The notes below the pieces were generated by a model, which ran no database searches, had not been told where the DNA came from, and was given only the letters and a program-made list of their open reading frames with translations. This document shows positions 25,197 to 29,980 of a stretch of DNA of 64,000 bases, in pieces. How positions within the stretch are numbered: position 1 is the first letter of the stretch; every line of letters begins with the position of its first letter. The stretch spans positions 310,001-374,000 of the forward strand of contig NZ_VOPL01000002.1 of assembly GCF_007993065.1 (NCBI RefSeq). The letters run 5' to 3'. Source of the DNA: Paracoccus aurantiacus. Its GTDB lineage: Bacteria > Pseudomonadota > Alphaproteobacteria > Rhodobacterales > Rhodobacteraceae. The position numbers were made by a program, and so were the translations under genes.

Positions 25197-26495
25197 CTAG
25201 AACGAAATCGGCCTCAAGACCTTGGCCCGCTTTTCCATCGAGCCGCCCCGGCCATAATCCGGCCGGTGGTATTTGTGCCCCATCAATTCGGCCCTGATCC
25301 GGTCATCGACCCCGGCCTCGGTCATCCGATCTTCAAAACTATGGCGCAAACAATAGGCGGAATGCTGCGGCGTTTCCCGCAAGCCGTTTTCGCGAAGATA
25401 CTTGCCAACCGCCGCCGACCAACTGTCGGACTTGCCGACATAGCGCGCTACGCCGCCTCGCGCCACGATGCGCCGGGCGGCATCCAACGATACCCCCACC
25501 AGCGGGATTTGCCGGGGCGAAGTTTCGGTTTTCACAGCCCGGTTTTCATTCTCGCGGATATCCAGATAGGGGATTTCGGCATCAACCGCGAAATCGGCCA
25601 GCCCGGCGCCAATGATTTCATTCGGTCTGGCGCCGGTATTGACCATCACCAGCAAGACGTCGCGCGCCTCCTCGTTCATCCGATCCAGAGCGCCGGGCGC
25701 CAGCAGTCGCTGCCTGATCCAGTCAGCCGAGAAGGGCAACCGTTTCGTGCGGCGCTGGTCGTCGCGAAAGCGCAGTTTGGCAAAGGGGCTTTCCGCCTTG
25801 ATCGCGTGATATTCGGTCCATGTGCTGAACAGATCGGAAAGAAAACCGATTTTCTTGTTGGCCGTGTTGCGCGTCAACTTGCCTGGCCCGGTGATGCGGC
25901 CATCCAGCCATTTGCGGAACGCCTGAGCATCGGCCCTAGTGATCTCCAGTATCGGGCGGTCTTCGCCAATAACGGCGACGAAATCAGCAACAGCGGTCTC
26001 ACGCGGCTGCCGCCAGCGCTTTCGCTGGTCGTCCGAGAACTTGGCCAGCCGGTCGATTGCGGAAAACTCCATCATTTCGCGCAGGGCCTCGGTGATCTTT
26101 GTCGCTGGTGGCTCGATGCCACCCAACAGCGCTATTCCCTCCACCAACGGCGCATAACTACCATCCGGCCGGATCAGTGCCTCAAGTCGCGTCAGGACTT
26201 CCTCAAGGCTTGCATCGGCCGCCAGATCGGCGGCGGGCCGATACCTGAACCCCCGTGCGGCAGCCAGTTTCTTGGCCGCATCGAAGGCCGTGGCGGCATC
26301 GCCATGTTCGCCGGCTGCGAGAGCCTTCCAATAGGTCAGAAACTCGGCCCGGATTGCTGGCTCTTTCGAGTGCGCCTCGCGCTCAGAATCGGTGAACAGC
26401 GCCCGACGCACCTGCGCCCGCGGGTCGATATGCGCAAACCGGCGCGGCACCCTCATGACGAAGTAGAAGTGATTACGATGCCGCGTGATGCCCAT
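25197..26495 (-). CDS. int: Tyrosine-type site-specific integrase of the island
   Basis: A 432-residue tyrosine recombinase. The N-terminus (MGITRHRNHFYFVMRVPRRF) looks like the DUF6538 arm domain of Rhodobacterales integrases. A core-binding domain follows in the middle. The catalytic part has TGARPNEI (Arg about 289), YCLRHSFEDRM, LMGHKYHRPDYG with Tyr near 413. In box II the usual His before LRH is replaced by Tyr, which I believe is common in this family. I chose ATG 26495: the 12 codons upstream (HQQLHQH) are a translation of the TTGATGC repeats. It should insert and excise the island at tRNA-Gly. Confidence 0.9.
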   Translation of the reverse strand: MGITRHRNHFYFVMRVPRRFAHIDPRAQVRRALFTDSEREAHSKEPAIRAEFLTYWKALAAGEHGDAATAFDAAKKLAAARGFRYRPAADLAADASLEEVLTRLEALIRPDGSYAPLVEGIALLGGIEPPATKITEALREMMEFSAIDRLAKFSDDQRKRWRQPRETAVADFVAVIGEDRPILEITRADAQAFRKWLDGRITGPGKLTRNTANKKIGFLSDLFSTWTEYHAIKAESPFAKLRFRDDQRRTKRLPFSADWIRQRLLAPGALDRMNEEARDVLLVMVNTGARPNEIIGAGLADFAVDAEIPYLDIRENENRAVKTETSPRQIPLVGVSLDAARRIVARGGVARYVGKSDSWSAAVGKYLRENGLRETPQHSAYCLRHSFEDRMTEAGVDDRIRAELMGHKYHRPDYGRGGSMEKRAKVLRPISF

Positions 26496-26506
26496 TGAAC
26501 AGCCCG

Positions 26507-26530
26507 AATGTTGATGCAATTGTTGATGCA
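26507..26530. promoter_or_regulatory. Candidate integrase arm-type sites, right end
   Basis: Two direct copies of TGTTGATGCA-like sequence (26509-26518 and 26521-26530) lie between the integrase start and attR. AATGTTGATGC at 26507-26517 matches 11723-11733 exactly. They overlap the integrase promoter region, so binding could also autoregulate int. Confidence 0.5.
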
Positions 26531-26620
26531 TACTTCTAGGCTGATGCGGGTTAATTTTCCATTAATAGCAGTAAATTACAGCAATTTCTGGTGTTTCCAG
26601 GTGCGCGAGACTTGGAATTT

Positions 26621-26636
26621 TGGAGCGGGTGATGGG
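26621..26636 (+). repeat. Right attachment-site repeat (attR), 3' end of tRNA-Gly
   Basis: TGGAGCGGGTGATGGG, identical to 11615-11630. On the minus strand it is the T-stem end, acceptor 3' strand and CCA of tRNA-Gly(TCC), so insertion leaves the tRNA whole. Confidence 0.93.
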
Positions 26637-26694
26637 AATCGAACCCACGTATTCAGCTTGGAAGGCTGCTGCTCTACCATTGAGCTACACCCGC
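26621..26694 (-). tRNA. tRNA-Gly (anticodon TCC)
   Basis: Cloverleaf on the minus strand: acceptor GCGGGTG pairing with CACCCGC, D-arm TAGCTCAATGGTAGAGCA, anticodon arm CAGCCTTCCAAGCTG (anticodon TCC), T-arm with GGGTTCGATTCCC, discriminator T and encoded CCA. Integration target of the island. Confidence 0.97.
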
Positions 26695-26744: not shown

Positions 26745-27638
26745 TTAATCAATTCGCGCAGGCAGGGTCAGCCCTCGCAGGATTTCCGCGGCAAGCATTG
26801 GGCGCTTTCCAGCGCGCTGGGCCTCCAGCACCTCGATGGCGCCTGTGCCGCAGGCGATACGGAAACCACCCAGCACCTCGCCGGGCTGTCCGGCGCCTTC
26901 TGACAGCCGGGACCGCAGCAATTTGACCCTTTCGCCCGCGATGTCGCACCAGGCACCGGGGAAGGGGGACAGGCCCCGAATTTGCCGGTCAATCTCGACC
27001 GCAGGTCTGGTCCAGTCGATCCGGGCCTCGGCCTTGTCGATCTTGGCGGCATAGGTGACGCCGTCGTCGGACTGCTGCTGCGCCGGCAAAGGCAGCCGTC
27101 CCAGCACATCGACGATAAGGTCCGCGCCCATCTCTGACAGCCGGTCATGCAGATCGGCCGTTGTCAGATCGGGCGTGATCGGCGTCCGAGCTTCTGCCAG
27201 CACGGGGCCGGTATCCAGCCTCGCCTCCATCTGCATGATTGCCACCCCGGTTTCTGCATCGCCTGCCATGATCGCCCGGTGGATCGGCGCCGCCCCCCGC
27301 CAGCGCGGCAGGATCGAGGCATGGATATTCAGGCACCCAAGGCGTGGTGCGTCCAGCACCGCCTGCGGCAGAATCAGCCCGTAGGCAACCACCACCGCCA
27401 CATCGGCACCAAGTGCCGCGAACTCTGCCTGCGCTTCCTCGCCCTTCAGGCTGCGAGGGTGACGGACAGGAATACCCAGCTCCTCGGCGGCTTGCTGCAC
27501 CGGGGACGGTCGCGGCTTTTGCCCCCGCCCCGCCTCTCGCGGCGGCTGGCTGTAGACGCAGATCACCTCATGCGCGGCGGCAATCCTGCGCAATGCCGGA
27601 ACCGAGAAATCGGGCGTTCCCATGAAAATAACCCGCAT
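26745..27638 (-). CDS. fmt: Methionyl-tRNA formyltransferase
   Basis: A 297-residue enzyme that formylates initiator Met-tRNA with 10-formyltetrahydrofolate. Motifs: [16 protein letters not shown] at the start, the catalytic [16 protein letters not shown] with Asn and His, and the later AEARTPI...; the C-terminal OB-like domain includes [11 protein letters not shown]. The length is slightly short of E. coli Fmt (315). I chose ATG 27638 over 27653 because the family begins MRV/MKI-F-MGTP. It is the last gene of a minus-strand def / def-like / fmt group. Confidence 0.95.
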
Positions 27639-27696
27639 CGCGCACTCTTTCATTCTGATTCAAATGTCCCGGGGTCCGGGGCTGGTCCCGGTCGGC

Positions 27697-28200
27697 CTAT
27701 CCGCGCTTTGACAGCTTCGCCGATTTCGCGACCAGCATCTTGCGGCGCAGCGGCGTCAGATGATCGACATACAGCTTGCCATTCAGATGGTCGATCTGAT
27801 GCTGGACCGAGGTCGCCCAAAGCCCGACGAAGTCGCGGTCCTCGACCTCTCCGGCGTCGTTCAGGAAGCGCACGGTGACAGCACGGGGACGGGTGATGCG
27901 GGCGAAGACGCCGGGCAGATTCGGGCTTGCCTCGTCATGGTCGCGGAACTGGACGGATTCGTGCAGGATTTCGGGGTTCGCCATCCGCACCGCCTGACCG
28001 CGCTTGTCCGAGGCATCGACCACCGCCAGCCGCAGCATGATCCCGATCTGCGGCGCGGCCAGACCCACGCCCGGCATCGCCTCCATCGTGTCGACCATGT
28101 CGTCCCAGATCATCCGCACCGATTCCGTCACCGCCTCGACCGGCTGGGCGGGTGTATGCAGGCGTTTGTCCGTGTAAGGCAGGAAGGGCCGTGTCGGCAT
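27697..28200 (-). CDS. Peptide deformylase-like protein lacking catalytic residues
   Basis: A 167-residue relative of peptide deformylase. Motif 1 is intact (GVGLAAPQIG, residues 44-53). Motif 2, normally EGCLS with the metal-binding Cys, reads EASPNLPG (90-97) with no Cys. Motif 3, normally HEIDH, reads HQIDH (134-138), so the catalytic Glu is Gln. Both metal His remain. It should therefore be inactive as a standard deformylase and may act as a binding or regulatory paralogue. Its ATG overlaps the stop of the intact def gene by one base (TGATG). Confidence 0.88.
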   Translation of the reverse strand: MPTRPFLPYTDKRLHTPAQPVEAVTESVRMIWDDMVDTMEAMPGVGLAAPQIGIMLRLAVVDASDKRGQAVRMANPEILHESVQFRDHDEASPNLPGVFARITRPRAVTVRFLNDAGEVEDRDFVGLWATSVQHQIDHLNGKLYVDHLTPLRRKMLVAKSAKLSKRG

Positions 28201-28727
28201 CAGGCCTGCTCGCGCGCGCGTTCGCGCTTCAGCTTGACCATCTTGCGGGTAATCATCTGGCGGCGCATGGCGCTGATATGGTCGATGAACAGCACACCGT
28301 CGAGATGGTCGATCTCGTGCTGGGCGCAGGTGGCCCACAGCCCGTCGAATTCGTCTTCGTGCTGCTTCCCATCAAGCCCTAGCCAGCTGACCCTGACCTC
28401 TGCCGGGCGCGTCACCTCGGCATAGTGATCGGGGATGGACAGGCAGCCTTCCTCGTACACGTTTTCGCCTTCGGATTCCCAGGTGATCTCCGGGTTGATC
28501 AGTACCATCGGGCGCGGCTCTGCCTCTGGGTCGCGTTGGGCGTCCATCACGAAAAGACGGCTGAGCACGCCGACCTGCGGCGCCGCCAGACCGATGCCCG
28601 GCGCATCATACATGGTGGCCAGCATATCCGCCGCCAGCGCCTCGATTTCCGGGGTGATGCGGGCGACGGGTTCGGCGGCCTTTTTCAGGCGCGGATCGGG
28701 ATGCAGCAGGATCGGGCGTATTGTCAT
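28200..28727 (-). CDS. def: Peptide deformylase
   Basis: A 175-residue metalloenzyme that removes the formyl group from new proteins. All three motifs are complete: GIGLAAPQVG (about 46-55), EEGCLSIPD (Cys about 99) and QHEIDHLDG (about 140-148). The start is MTIRPILLHPDPRL, a typical beginning. It is translationally coupled to the degenerate paralogue downstream, and fmt follows, giving both ends of the formylation cycle in one cluster. Confidence 0.96.
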   Translation of the reverse strand: MTIRPILLHPDPRLKKAAEPVARITPEIEALAADMLATMYDAPGIGLAAPQVGVLSRLFVMDAQRDPEAEPRPMVLINPEITWESEGENVYEEGCLSIPDHYAEVTRPAEVRVSWLGLDGKQHEDEFDGLWATCAQHEIDHLDGVLFIDHISAMRRQMITRKMVKLKRERAREQA

Positions 28728-28798: not shown

Positions 28799-29980
28799 AT
28801 GACCACACCGAATTTCGACGAAATCATCGAACGCCGCGGCACGAACTGCAACAAATGGGACGATATGGAAGCCGTCTATGGCGTGCCCGCTGATGGTGGT
28901 CTGGCGATGTGGGTGGCAGACATGGACTTCCGCCCGCCCGCATCGGTGCAGCGCGCGCTGGAAGGGCTGGTCGCGCATGGGGTCTATGGCTATCCGTCGC
29001 AGAACCCGGATTATCTGCCCGCGATCCATTGGTGGATGCAGAACCGGCACGGCTGGGAAATCGATCCCGACTGGATCGTCACGGCACTTGGGCTGGTGAA
29101 CGGCACCGCGCTGGCGATTGCAGCCTTCACCGATCCGGGCGACCGGGTAATTCTGATGACGCCGGTCTATCACGCCTTTTCCCGCGTTATCCGGGCGCAG
29201 GGCCGCGAGGTTGCCGAGTTTCCGCTCGCCCGCGAAGACGACCGCTATGTCTTCGACTGGCAGGCGTGGGAAAAGCTGCTGACGGGCCGCGAAAAAATGC
29301 TGATCCTGTGCAGCCCCCATAATCCCGGCGGGCGGGTCTGGACGCCACAGGAACTGCGCGAGGTCGCCGATTTCTGCAAGGCCCATGACCTGCTGCTGGT
29401 CAGTGACGAAATCCACCACGATCTGGTCATGCCGGGCCACAAGCATACGGTCATGGCCAATGCGGCCCCCGATATTGCCGACAGGCTGATCACGCTGACG
29501 GCGGCGACCAAGACATTCAACCTTGCGGGCGCGCATGTCGGCAACGCAATCATCTCCGATCCGAAGCTGCGCGCGGCTTATAAGGCGCAGATGCTGGGGC
29601 TGGGCCTGTCCACCGGCATGTTCGGCACTGACATGGTGACGGCTGCCTATTCCCCGGAAGGGGCGGCATGGGTGGATGCGCTTATCCCTTACCTTGATGC
29701 GAACCGGCGGCTGTTCGACGACGGGGTGAATGCGATCCCCGGTCTGTCATCCATGCCGCTGGAGGCGACCTATCTGTCATGGGTCGATCTGTCCGGCACC
29801 GGCATGACCCCGGACGAGGTGAAATCGCGGGTTGCGAAGGATGCGAAGATCGCTGCGAATGCGGGCGAGACTTTCGGGCTGGGGGGCGAGGGCTTTCTGC
29901 GCTTCAACCTCGCCACCCCGCTCGCCAATGTCGAAGCGGCGGTGACACGGCTGCAATCCGCATTCGCCGATCTGCAATAG
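28799..29980 (+). CDS. patB: PLP-dependent C-S lyase (PatB/MalY family)
   Basis: A 393-residue class I aminotransferase-fold enzyme, probably cleaving cystathionine or similar C-S bonds. Typical sequence: GTNCNKWDD near the start, MWVADMDFRPP, YGYPSQ, the NPGGRVW motif, SDEIHHDLV with the PLP-contacting Asp, the Schiff-base Lys in TAATKTFNLAG, and the C-terminal FLRFNLATP with the carboxylate-binding Arg. An AGGAGG precedes ATG 28799. It is divergent from def and followed 10 bases later by the L,D-transpeptidase gene. Confidence 0.9.
   Translation: MTTPNFDEIIERRGTNCNKWDDMEAVYGVPADGGLAMWVADMDFRPPASVQRALEGLVAHGVYGYPSQNPDYLPAIHWWMQNRHGWEIDPDWIVTALGLVNGTALAIAAFTDPGDRVILMTPVYHAFSRVIRAQGREVAEFPLAREDDRYVFDWQAWEKLLTGREKMLILCSPHNPGGRVWTPQELREVADFCKAHDLLLVSDEIHHDLVMPGHKHTVMANAAPDIADRLITLTAATKTFNLAGAHVGNAIISDPKLRAAYKAQMLGLGLSTGMFGTDMVTAAYSPEGAAWVDALIPYLDANRRLFDDGVNAIPGLSSMPLEATYLSWVDLSGTGMTPDEVKSRVAKDAKIAANAGETFGLGGEGFLRFNLATPLANVEAAVTRLQSAFADLQ

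Follow-up and report, generated by a model that had tools for sequence, protein, structure and literature searches.

A second peptide deformylase (PDF) paralogue, here called P, is encoded beside the intact deformylase gene (def, or D1) in the window, the 64,000-nucleotide stretch of DNA analyzed here. The P protein is very probably dead as a deformylase and under selection. We infer its lack of deformylase activity from the chemistry of PDFs and from one C90S experiment in Salmonella. Its role may, tentatively, be that of a cleft-binding, probably ribosome-docked, non-hydrolyzing partner in N-terminal processing. Some genomes encode a third PDF copy, here called D2. The features of the window that bear on P are as follows.

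28200..28727, minus strand: def (D1), intact peptide deformylase of 175 aa (PF01327, 181.8 bits; motifs EEGCLSIP and HEIDH)
27697..28200, minus strand: P, catalytically replaced deformylase paralogue of 167 aa (PF01327, TIGR00079, alignment and AlphaFold2 model)
27910..27933, minus strand: replaced motif II of P, EASPNLPG, giving E88, A89, S90, P91 and N92 in E. coli numbering (sequence)
27787..27801, minus strand: replaced motif III of P, HQIDH, giving H132, Q133, x, D135 and H136 (sequence)
27703..27753, minus strand: C-terminal helix of P, residues 150-166 in the model; its basic residues align with K150, K157 and K160 of E. coli PDF (model and alignment)
26745..27653, minus strand: fmt, methionyl-tRNA formyltransferase, 3′ of P (TIGR00460, 285.7 bits, cut-off 201.5); an alternative start at 27638 is possible

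Gene Order and Gene Calls

The reading frame of P begins at an ATG at 28200 and yields 167 aa. A GTG-start alternative of 213 aa is also open, but homology supports the ATG, which is therefore taken as the start. P belongs to the Pfam family PF01327, matching it over its length at 132.8 bits (cut-off 22.8), and matches the NCBIfam model TIGR00079 at 126.2 bits (cut-off 103.95). Since the latter score is above the cut-off, automatic annotation would call P a peptide deformylase, and users of annotated genomes should be warned that P-type proteins carry this name. A PF01327 search of the whole genome gave no match besides D1 and P.

The genes stand in the order D1-(D2)-P-fmt, all on one strand. 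In the window, the start of P overlaps the stop of D1 by 1 nt (TGATG), and across relatives the start of P overlaps the stop of the preceding PDF gene by 4 nt in 115 of the 182 loci measured (2 of the 184 P loci were not measured). The original prediction, made from the letters of the window, had described a copy retained in translation-coupled order, and these overlaps bear it out. An intact def lies beside P in 183 of the 184 P loci; in the remaining genome it sits on the opposite strand at a distance of about 3 kb. As all 184 P genomes thus keep an intact def, P does not replace it.

Two neighbors flank this gene group in the window. A phage-integrase-family gene (PF00589, 30.1 bits, cut-off 27.1; region 25197-26694) lies just downstream of a tRNA-Gly gene (26621-26694, minus strand) by fmt, where an integrated element may end. 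A gene for a class I/II aminotransferase (28799-29980, plus strand) is divergent from def; judged by eye, the def locus of genome G187 (L155) also encodes a protein resembling it, there on the other strand.

Replacement of the Catalytic Motifs

In E. coli PDF numbering, P carries C90S, L91P, S92N, C129S, and E133Q and keeps H132, H136, Q50, and E88. Motif I is intact, reading GVGLAAPQ where active PDFs have GxGLAAxQ, and its Q50 is present in 184/184 P proteins. Motif II reads EASPN instead of EGCxS, so that the metal-ligand Cys90 is lost (S90 in 184/184), and motif III reads HQIDH instead of HExxH, so that the general base Glu133 is lost (Q133 in 184/184). A motif II without Cys and a motif III reading HQIDH, in a gene beside an intact def, were what the original prediction had seen, and both stand in the ORF at 27697-28200 on the minus strand.

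Whether these substitutions are conserved across relatives was the check that the original prediction proposed, and they are: S90, P91, and Q133 occur together in all 186 full-length P orthologues read. These comprise 162 from a family draw of one genome per genus and 24 further ones from the window's own, Paracoccus-like genus, and they were found by whole-protein similarity, independently of the replaced residues. Two of them were fetched later and have the same residues, hence 184 on the tree. P91, S129, Q50, E88, H132, D135, and H136 are each found in 184/184 P proteins on the tree, so that Leu91 to Pro and Cys129 to Ser are further fixed changes, which the prediction had missed. Among 502 PDF proteins, from which 4 partial PDFs of <120 aa and the repeat loci L001, L002, and L222-L225 were left out, the proteins with S90 and Q133 number 184 and form exactly one clade (support 1.0, FastTree). 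Relatives of the P copy with intact motifs, the case that would have pointed to mere decay, were looked for and are absent; the S90/Q133 clade has no other member.

Codon usage at the replaced residues is informative as well. Ser90 is encoded by AGY in 134 P genes and by TCN in 50, Ser129 by AGY in 83 and by TCN in 101, and Gln133 by CAG in 173 and by CAA in 11. The use of both codon families at Ser90 and Ser129 indicates that the amino acid is held rather than the codon. Cys or Glu is one base change away from the commonest codon at these sites, and neither is seen there in P. Residue 92 (window codon 27919-27921) is Asn in 168, Cys in 14, and His in 2 of the 184 proteins, with 13 changes on the tree. 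Cys5 never occurs together with Cys92 (0/14), possibly through shared ancestry.

The cleft may instead have been turned to another use, with the two histidines and residue 92 binding a metal or ligand, or with another reaction being catalyzed. H132, H136, Q50, E88, S90, and Q133 are invariant in the 184 proteins, and residue 92 is only ever Asn, Cys, or His, whose side chains are able to ligate metals. However, Cys or His occupies position 92 in 16/184 only, Asn is a poor ligand, and the neighborhood hints at no substrates other than those of the def and fmt products, which makes a repurposed enzyme or metal site improbable.

Probable Loss of Deformylase Chemistry

From the known mechanism of PDFs, deformylase chemistry is expected to be lost once Glu133 no longer serves as general base and the backbone NH of Leu91, which would hold the formyl oxygen, is removed by a proline. 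In docking work, the Leu91 backbone and Gln50 are hydrogen-bond partners (PMC4964514, in part). For Salmonella PDF, the available part of the published account reports a C90S mutant showing that Cys90 is needed for activity, and that Ser at the second cysteine, Cys130 there and presumably position 129 here, cuts the activity roughly in half (PMC7683392). The view of P as probably inactive, already put forward in the original prediction, is thus borne out at the level of sequence by the replaced motifs.

It is very doubtful that P retains weak or specialized deformylase activity. Published PDF motifs are imperfect predictors of activity, and in 7.1% of reference genomes no PDF carries even the updated motifs (PMC12690207, in part), which leaves such activity some room. 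Yet the metal ligand and the general base are gone in all copies read, Cys90 is needed in the Salmonella enzyme (PMC7683392, in part), and an intact def accompanies P in 184/184 genomes.

Distribution

All 25 genomes first searched from the window's genus, its own included, carry P, the other 24 at 76-90% identity. The family draw covered 198 genomes from 197 genera. Six of them are uninformative, as P found no match in them even at 0.001. P is present in 164 of the 192 informative genomes, full-length in 162 and as a fragment at a contig end in 2 (G138 and G187). It is missing from the other 28, and in 26 of these a single fetched stretch holds both def and fmt (and D2 as well in two), so the absence there is not an assembly gap. 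One P-less genome has PDF-like fragments with internal stops beside def (G197:C67:721-1513, near L218), likely a decaying extra copy in that genome.

Named relatives with P include Paracoccus, Thioclava, Defluviimonas, Rhodobacter, Cereibacter, Roseovarius, and Salipiger, and judged from these the family is Rhodobacteraceae. The named loci were found by a pattern containing QHQ and hence give no evidence for Q133; 50 of the 80 were used for A2. Near-complete genomes drawn at the level of the order have P in 61/61 cases, all labelled as the same family. A class-level search of 385 genomes with profile A1, built from 45 of the 184 P proteins, gave P-like scores (268-287 bits) only in 5 same-family genomes among the matches listed by score. 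None of the 380 class genomes of other families was P-like among the matches listed, and 24/24 other-family loci read, with one PDF each, have intact EGCLS and HExDH. A P clade wider than the family is rejected in view of these intact loci and of the best other-family score listed, 193.6 bits against at least 268.

On a tree of 190 genomes built from def and Fmt, the pattern of presence and absence of P takes 14 changes. Given these changes and its absence from 28/192 genomes, P is dispensable over evolution. A single gain with repeated loss is compatible with the 14 changes, a count that by itself fits repeated gain equally; the single P clade favors loss.

Origin of P and the Other PDF Copies

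The origin of P was examined on a 95-protein tree (IQ-TREE, LG+C20) of 24 of the 184 P, 24 D1, and 18 of the 100 D2 proteins chosen for diversity, together with 28 alphaproteobacterial defs of other families and E. coli PDF. P forms a clade with 100/100 support (bootstrap/SH-aLRT), and a split with 99/97 support, whose bootstrap is rough and not fully settled, separates P, D2, and the family def from the 28 defs of other families and E. coli PDF. A quick tree run gave SH-aLRT values of 100 and 97. By this grouping, P and D2 are duplicates that arose on the branch from which the family descends; the D1 proteins do not form one clade there. Both the C-terminal helix of the model and the grouping with the family def (99/97) place P in the lineage of type 1B PDFs, the type to which we take the defs of the family and of other alphaproteobacteria to belong.

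The other copies keep their catalytic residues. In D1, C90, E133, H132, and H136 are kept in 218/218 proteins (5 from other families). Position 97 is Tyr or Phe in the def of the window (28200-28727) and in 216/218 D1 proteins; in Vibrio cholerae, Arg97 to Tyr is tied to reduced actinonin susceptibility (PMC12690207, in part).

D2 lies between def and P in 84 of the 160 P loci of the draw (for example L026:967-1494, plus strand), has the motif I sequence GRGLAAPQ, and is missing from the genome of the window. C90, E133, and H132 are each present in 99/100 D2 proteins and H136 in 100/100. The median net charge of the tail is 0 in D2, +6 in P, and +8 in def. D2 is thus the reverse of P, having kept the catalytic residues and lost the basic tail. 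Co-occurrence of D2 and P has no tree-aware support (median p 1).

Selection on P

Within the genus, P has a mean dN of 0.126 against 0.161 for def (297 common genome pairs, Nei-Gojobori), and median omega is 0.19 for P (322 pairs) and 0.23 for def (300 pairs). In the 78 genus pairs with all three copies, dN is 0.122 for P, 0.163 for def, and 0.355 for D2, which evolves at about twice the rate of def in the genus. Family-wide, P is slightly less conserved than def, with mean identities of 65.7% and 69.7%, respectively (2000 random pairs, 159 genomes). By these measures P is under purifying selection.

Constraint is spread unevenly along the protein. The entropy of the catalytic core (windows 41-49, 89-97, 129-137, and 133-141) is 0.18-0.42 bits in P and 0.16-0.25 bits in def, whereas the first 20 residues and the C-terminal helix are looser in P than in def. 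Seven positions are >90% conserved in both proteins with a different residue in each (41, 90, 91, 92, 129, 133, and 154). Five of them fall in a set of 24 positions taken as the active site of PDFs (hypergeometric p 0.0007). With the tight core, this suggests that selection in P holds mainly a changed cleft.

That P is a decaying duplicate is extremely improbable, and we reject it. It would account for the absence of P from 28/192 genomes and for the stop-bearing PDF-like fragments beside def in G197. Against it stand the fixed replacements, a dN below that of def in the genus, the codon usage at the replaced residues, and the full-length copies in 162 genomes of the draw.

A stretch within residues 58-68 (LAVVD.S..RG) and A74 are conserved only in P and variable in def, and they are a candidate contact surface. 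Such a surface would suit a pseudoenzyme subunit or activator that pairs with def (or Fmt), its stoichiometry set by translation coupling. The D1-(D2)-P-fmt order on one strand and the 4-nt overlap in 115/182 loci agree with this arrangement, as do def columns 152 and 159, which differ between genomes with and without P in a comparison that is exploratory and confounded by ancestry. PDFs, however, are generally described as monomers, 28 genomes of the draw have def but lack P and show intact def motifs throughout, and a pure scaffold would not obviously need the frozen cleft residues. We consider such pairing rather unlikely.

Structure and Possible Ribosome Docking

The best AlphaFold2 model of P (mean pLDDT 92.1) has the whole PDF fold, including a C-terminal helix at residues 150-166; one of the five models is poor (mean pLDDT 59.3). 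The best model superposes on E. coli PDF (1xen) with a Z of 26.4 and 1.5 Å over 165 residues, and the nine best solved structures found for P with Foldseek are ordinary deformylases at 36-41% identity.

In E. coli PDF, L149, K150, R153, and K157 of this helix contact uL22, and K160 and R163 contact 23S rRNA (PMC12690207, in part). The P proteins carry a basic residue (Lys or Arg) at 150, 157, and 160 without exception, and all 184 have R151. Position 153, the Arg that contacts uL22 in E. coli, is Met in 91% of P proteins and also in 79% of the family def. Windows within 149-165 have an entropy of 1.05-1.79 bits in P against 0.50-0.64 bits in def. As the helix outside its basic residues is thus less conserved in P than in def, the case for docking is weakened. 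The cleft and the basic helix residues of P are consistent with the binding of nascent chains or ribosomes, a fit that falls short of proof.

P might also be an inert place-holder that competes for the ribosomal site of PDF and methionine aminopeptidase (MAP) and slows N-terminal processing, its cleft being kept for folding. In favor of this, P retains the basic residues of the helix, and in E. coli the site is contested by PDF and MAP (PMC8712518, in part). Apart from those residues, though, conservation of the helix is lower than that of the cleft, and the S90, P91, and Q133 set is unneeded for folding in def or D2. We hold an inert competitor to be unlikely.

Possible Role in N-Terminal Processing

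A ribosome-docked, non-hydrolyzing binder is tentatively favored because of the model of P, its basic helix residues, and the reverse pattern in D2. In this scheme, def would have been duplicated in the lineage leading to the family, giving rise to P. P would then have lost deformylase chemistry in several ways, through replacement of the ligand Cys90 by Ser, of the base Glu133 by Gln, of Leu91 by Pro, and of Cys129 by Ser, and would have kept the fold, the two metal-site histidines, Gln50, Glu88, and the basic C-terminal helix. It may dock beside the exit tunnel as def does, where its non-hydrolyzing cleft may hold formyl-methionine N-termini or another N-terminal ligand. P would thereby tune deformylation by the def of the same operon. 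We infer both the ligand and the docking.

More specifically, P might be a dedicated reader of N-formyl-methionine, in which the rebuilt cleft (S90-P91-N/C/H92, Q133, S129, and H132/H136) would hold rather than cut formylated N-termini at the ribosome exit, although this is a minor possibility. Such a reader would explain def, P, and fmt as one translation-coupled unit, and through it these bacteria could regulate whether a formyl group stays or is removed.

Whatever its ligand, the non-hydrolyzing binder would bear on how N-terminal processing is understood. Deformylation is usually treated as a simple obligatory step. P is kept by most genera of an ecologically major family and evolves more slowly than the essential enzyme in the genus, which implies a second function in N-terminal processing.

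Comparison With Known Deformylases

In a literature search, no account of a fixed inactive PDF copy was found among the matches listed (mostly non-subscription papers, without supplements), and no paper pairing peptide deformylase with pseudoenzyme. Nor did these matches show any experiment on the activity of P, its binding, or its contact with ribosomes. A search on peptide deformylase, Rhodobacter, essential genes, and transposon found none on Rhodobacter by title, and the word deformylase is absent from a review of inactive metallopeptidases (PMC11266112).

The closest known relatives of P are type 1B PDFs (def, PF01327; E. coli PDF), with which it shares the whole fold, motif I, the metal-site histidines, the C-terminal helix, and fmt as a neighbor. 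P differs from them in having Cys90 to Ser, Leu91 to Pro, Cys129 to Ser, and Glu133 to Gln, each in 184/184, and Ser92 to Asn, Cys, or His.

P also resembles the type 3 or inactive PDF homologs, namely the second PDFs of Staphylococcus aureus and Streptococcus pneumoniae and the archaeal and trypanosomatid PDFs, which have substituted catalytic motifs and are weakly active or inactive (PMC12690207; PMC5591237; both in part). For S. aureus and S. pneumoniae, the second PDF is reported to have shown no activity under the conditions tested (PMC12690207, in part). P shares the substituted motifs in II and III; the available part of PMC12690207 names motifs I and II for this type, and motif I of P is intact. 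Unlike the type 3 PDFs, P derives from the family's own def, lies between def and fmt, and has one fixed set of replacements; its descent is judged from a tree of P, D1, D2, the other alphaproteobacterial defs, and E. coli PDF. V. cholerae Def2 is likewise a second PDF in its genome and has Met at 153 (PMC12690207, in part). In contrast to P, Def2 is active and lowers actinonin susceptibility.

The nearest published counterpart of the locus is the set of PDF gene clusters in Rhodobacterales. Multiple PDF genes are clustered in 98.1% of Rhodobacterales reference species, 62.5% having three, and the rationale for such clusters was called elusive (Lamberioux et al., 2025; PMC12690207, in part). 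These are evidently the same gene clusters as those of P, which the available part of that survey counts without naming the catalytically replaced member or its fixation. P thus offers a testable reason for the Rhodobacterales PDF clusters that the 2025 survey left unexplained.
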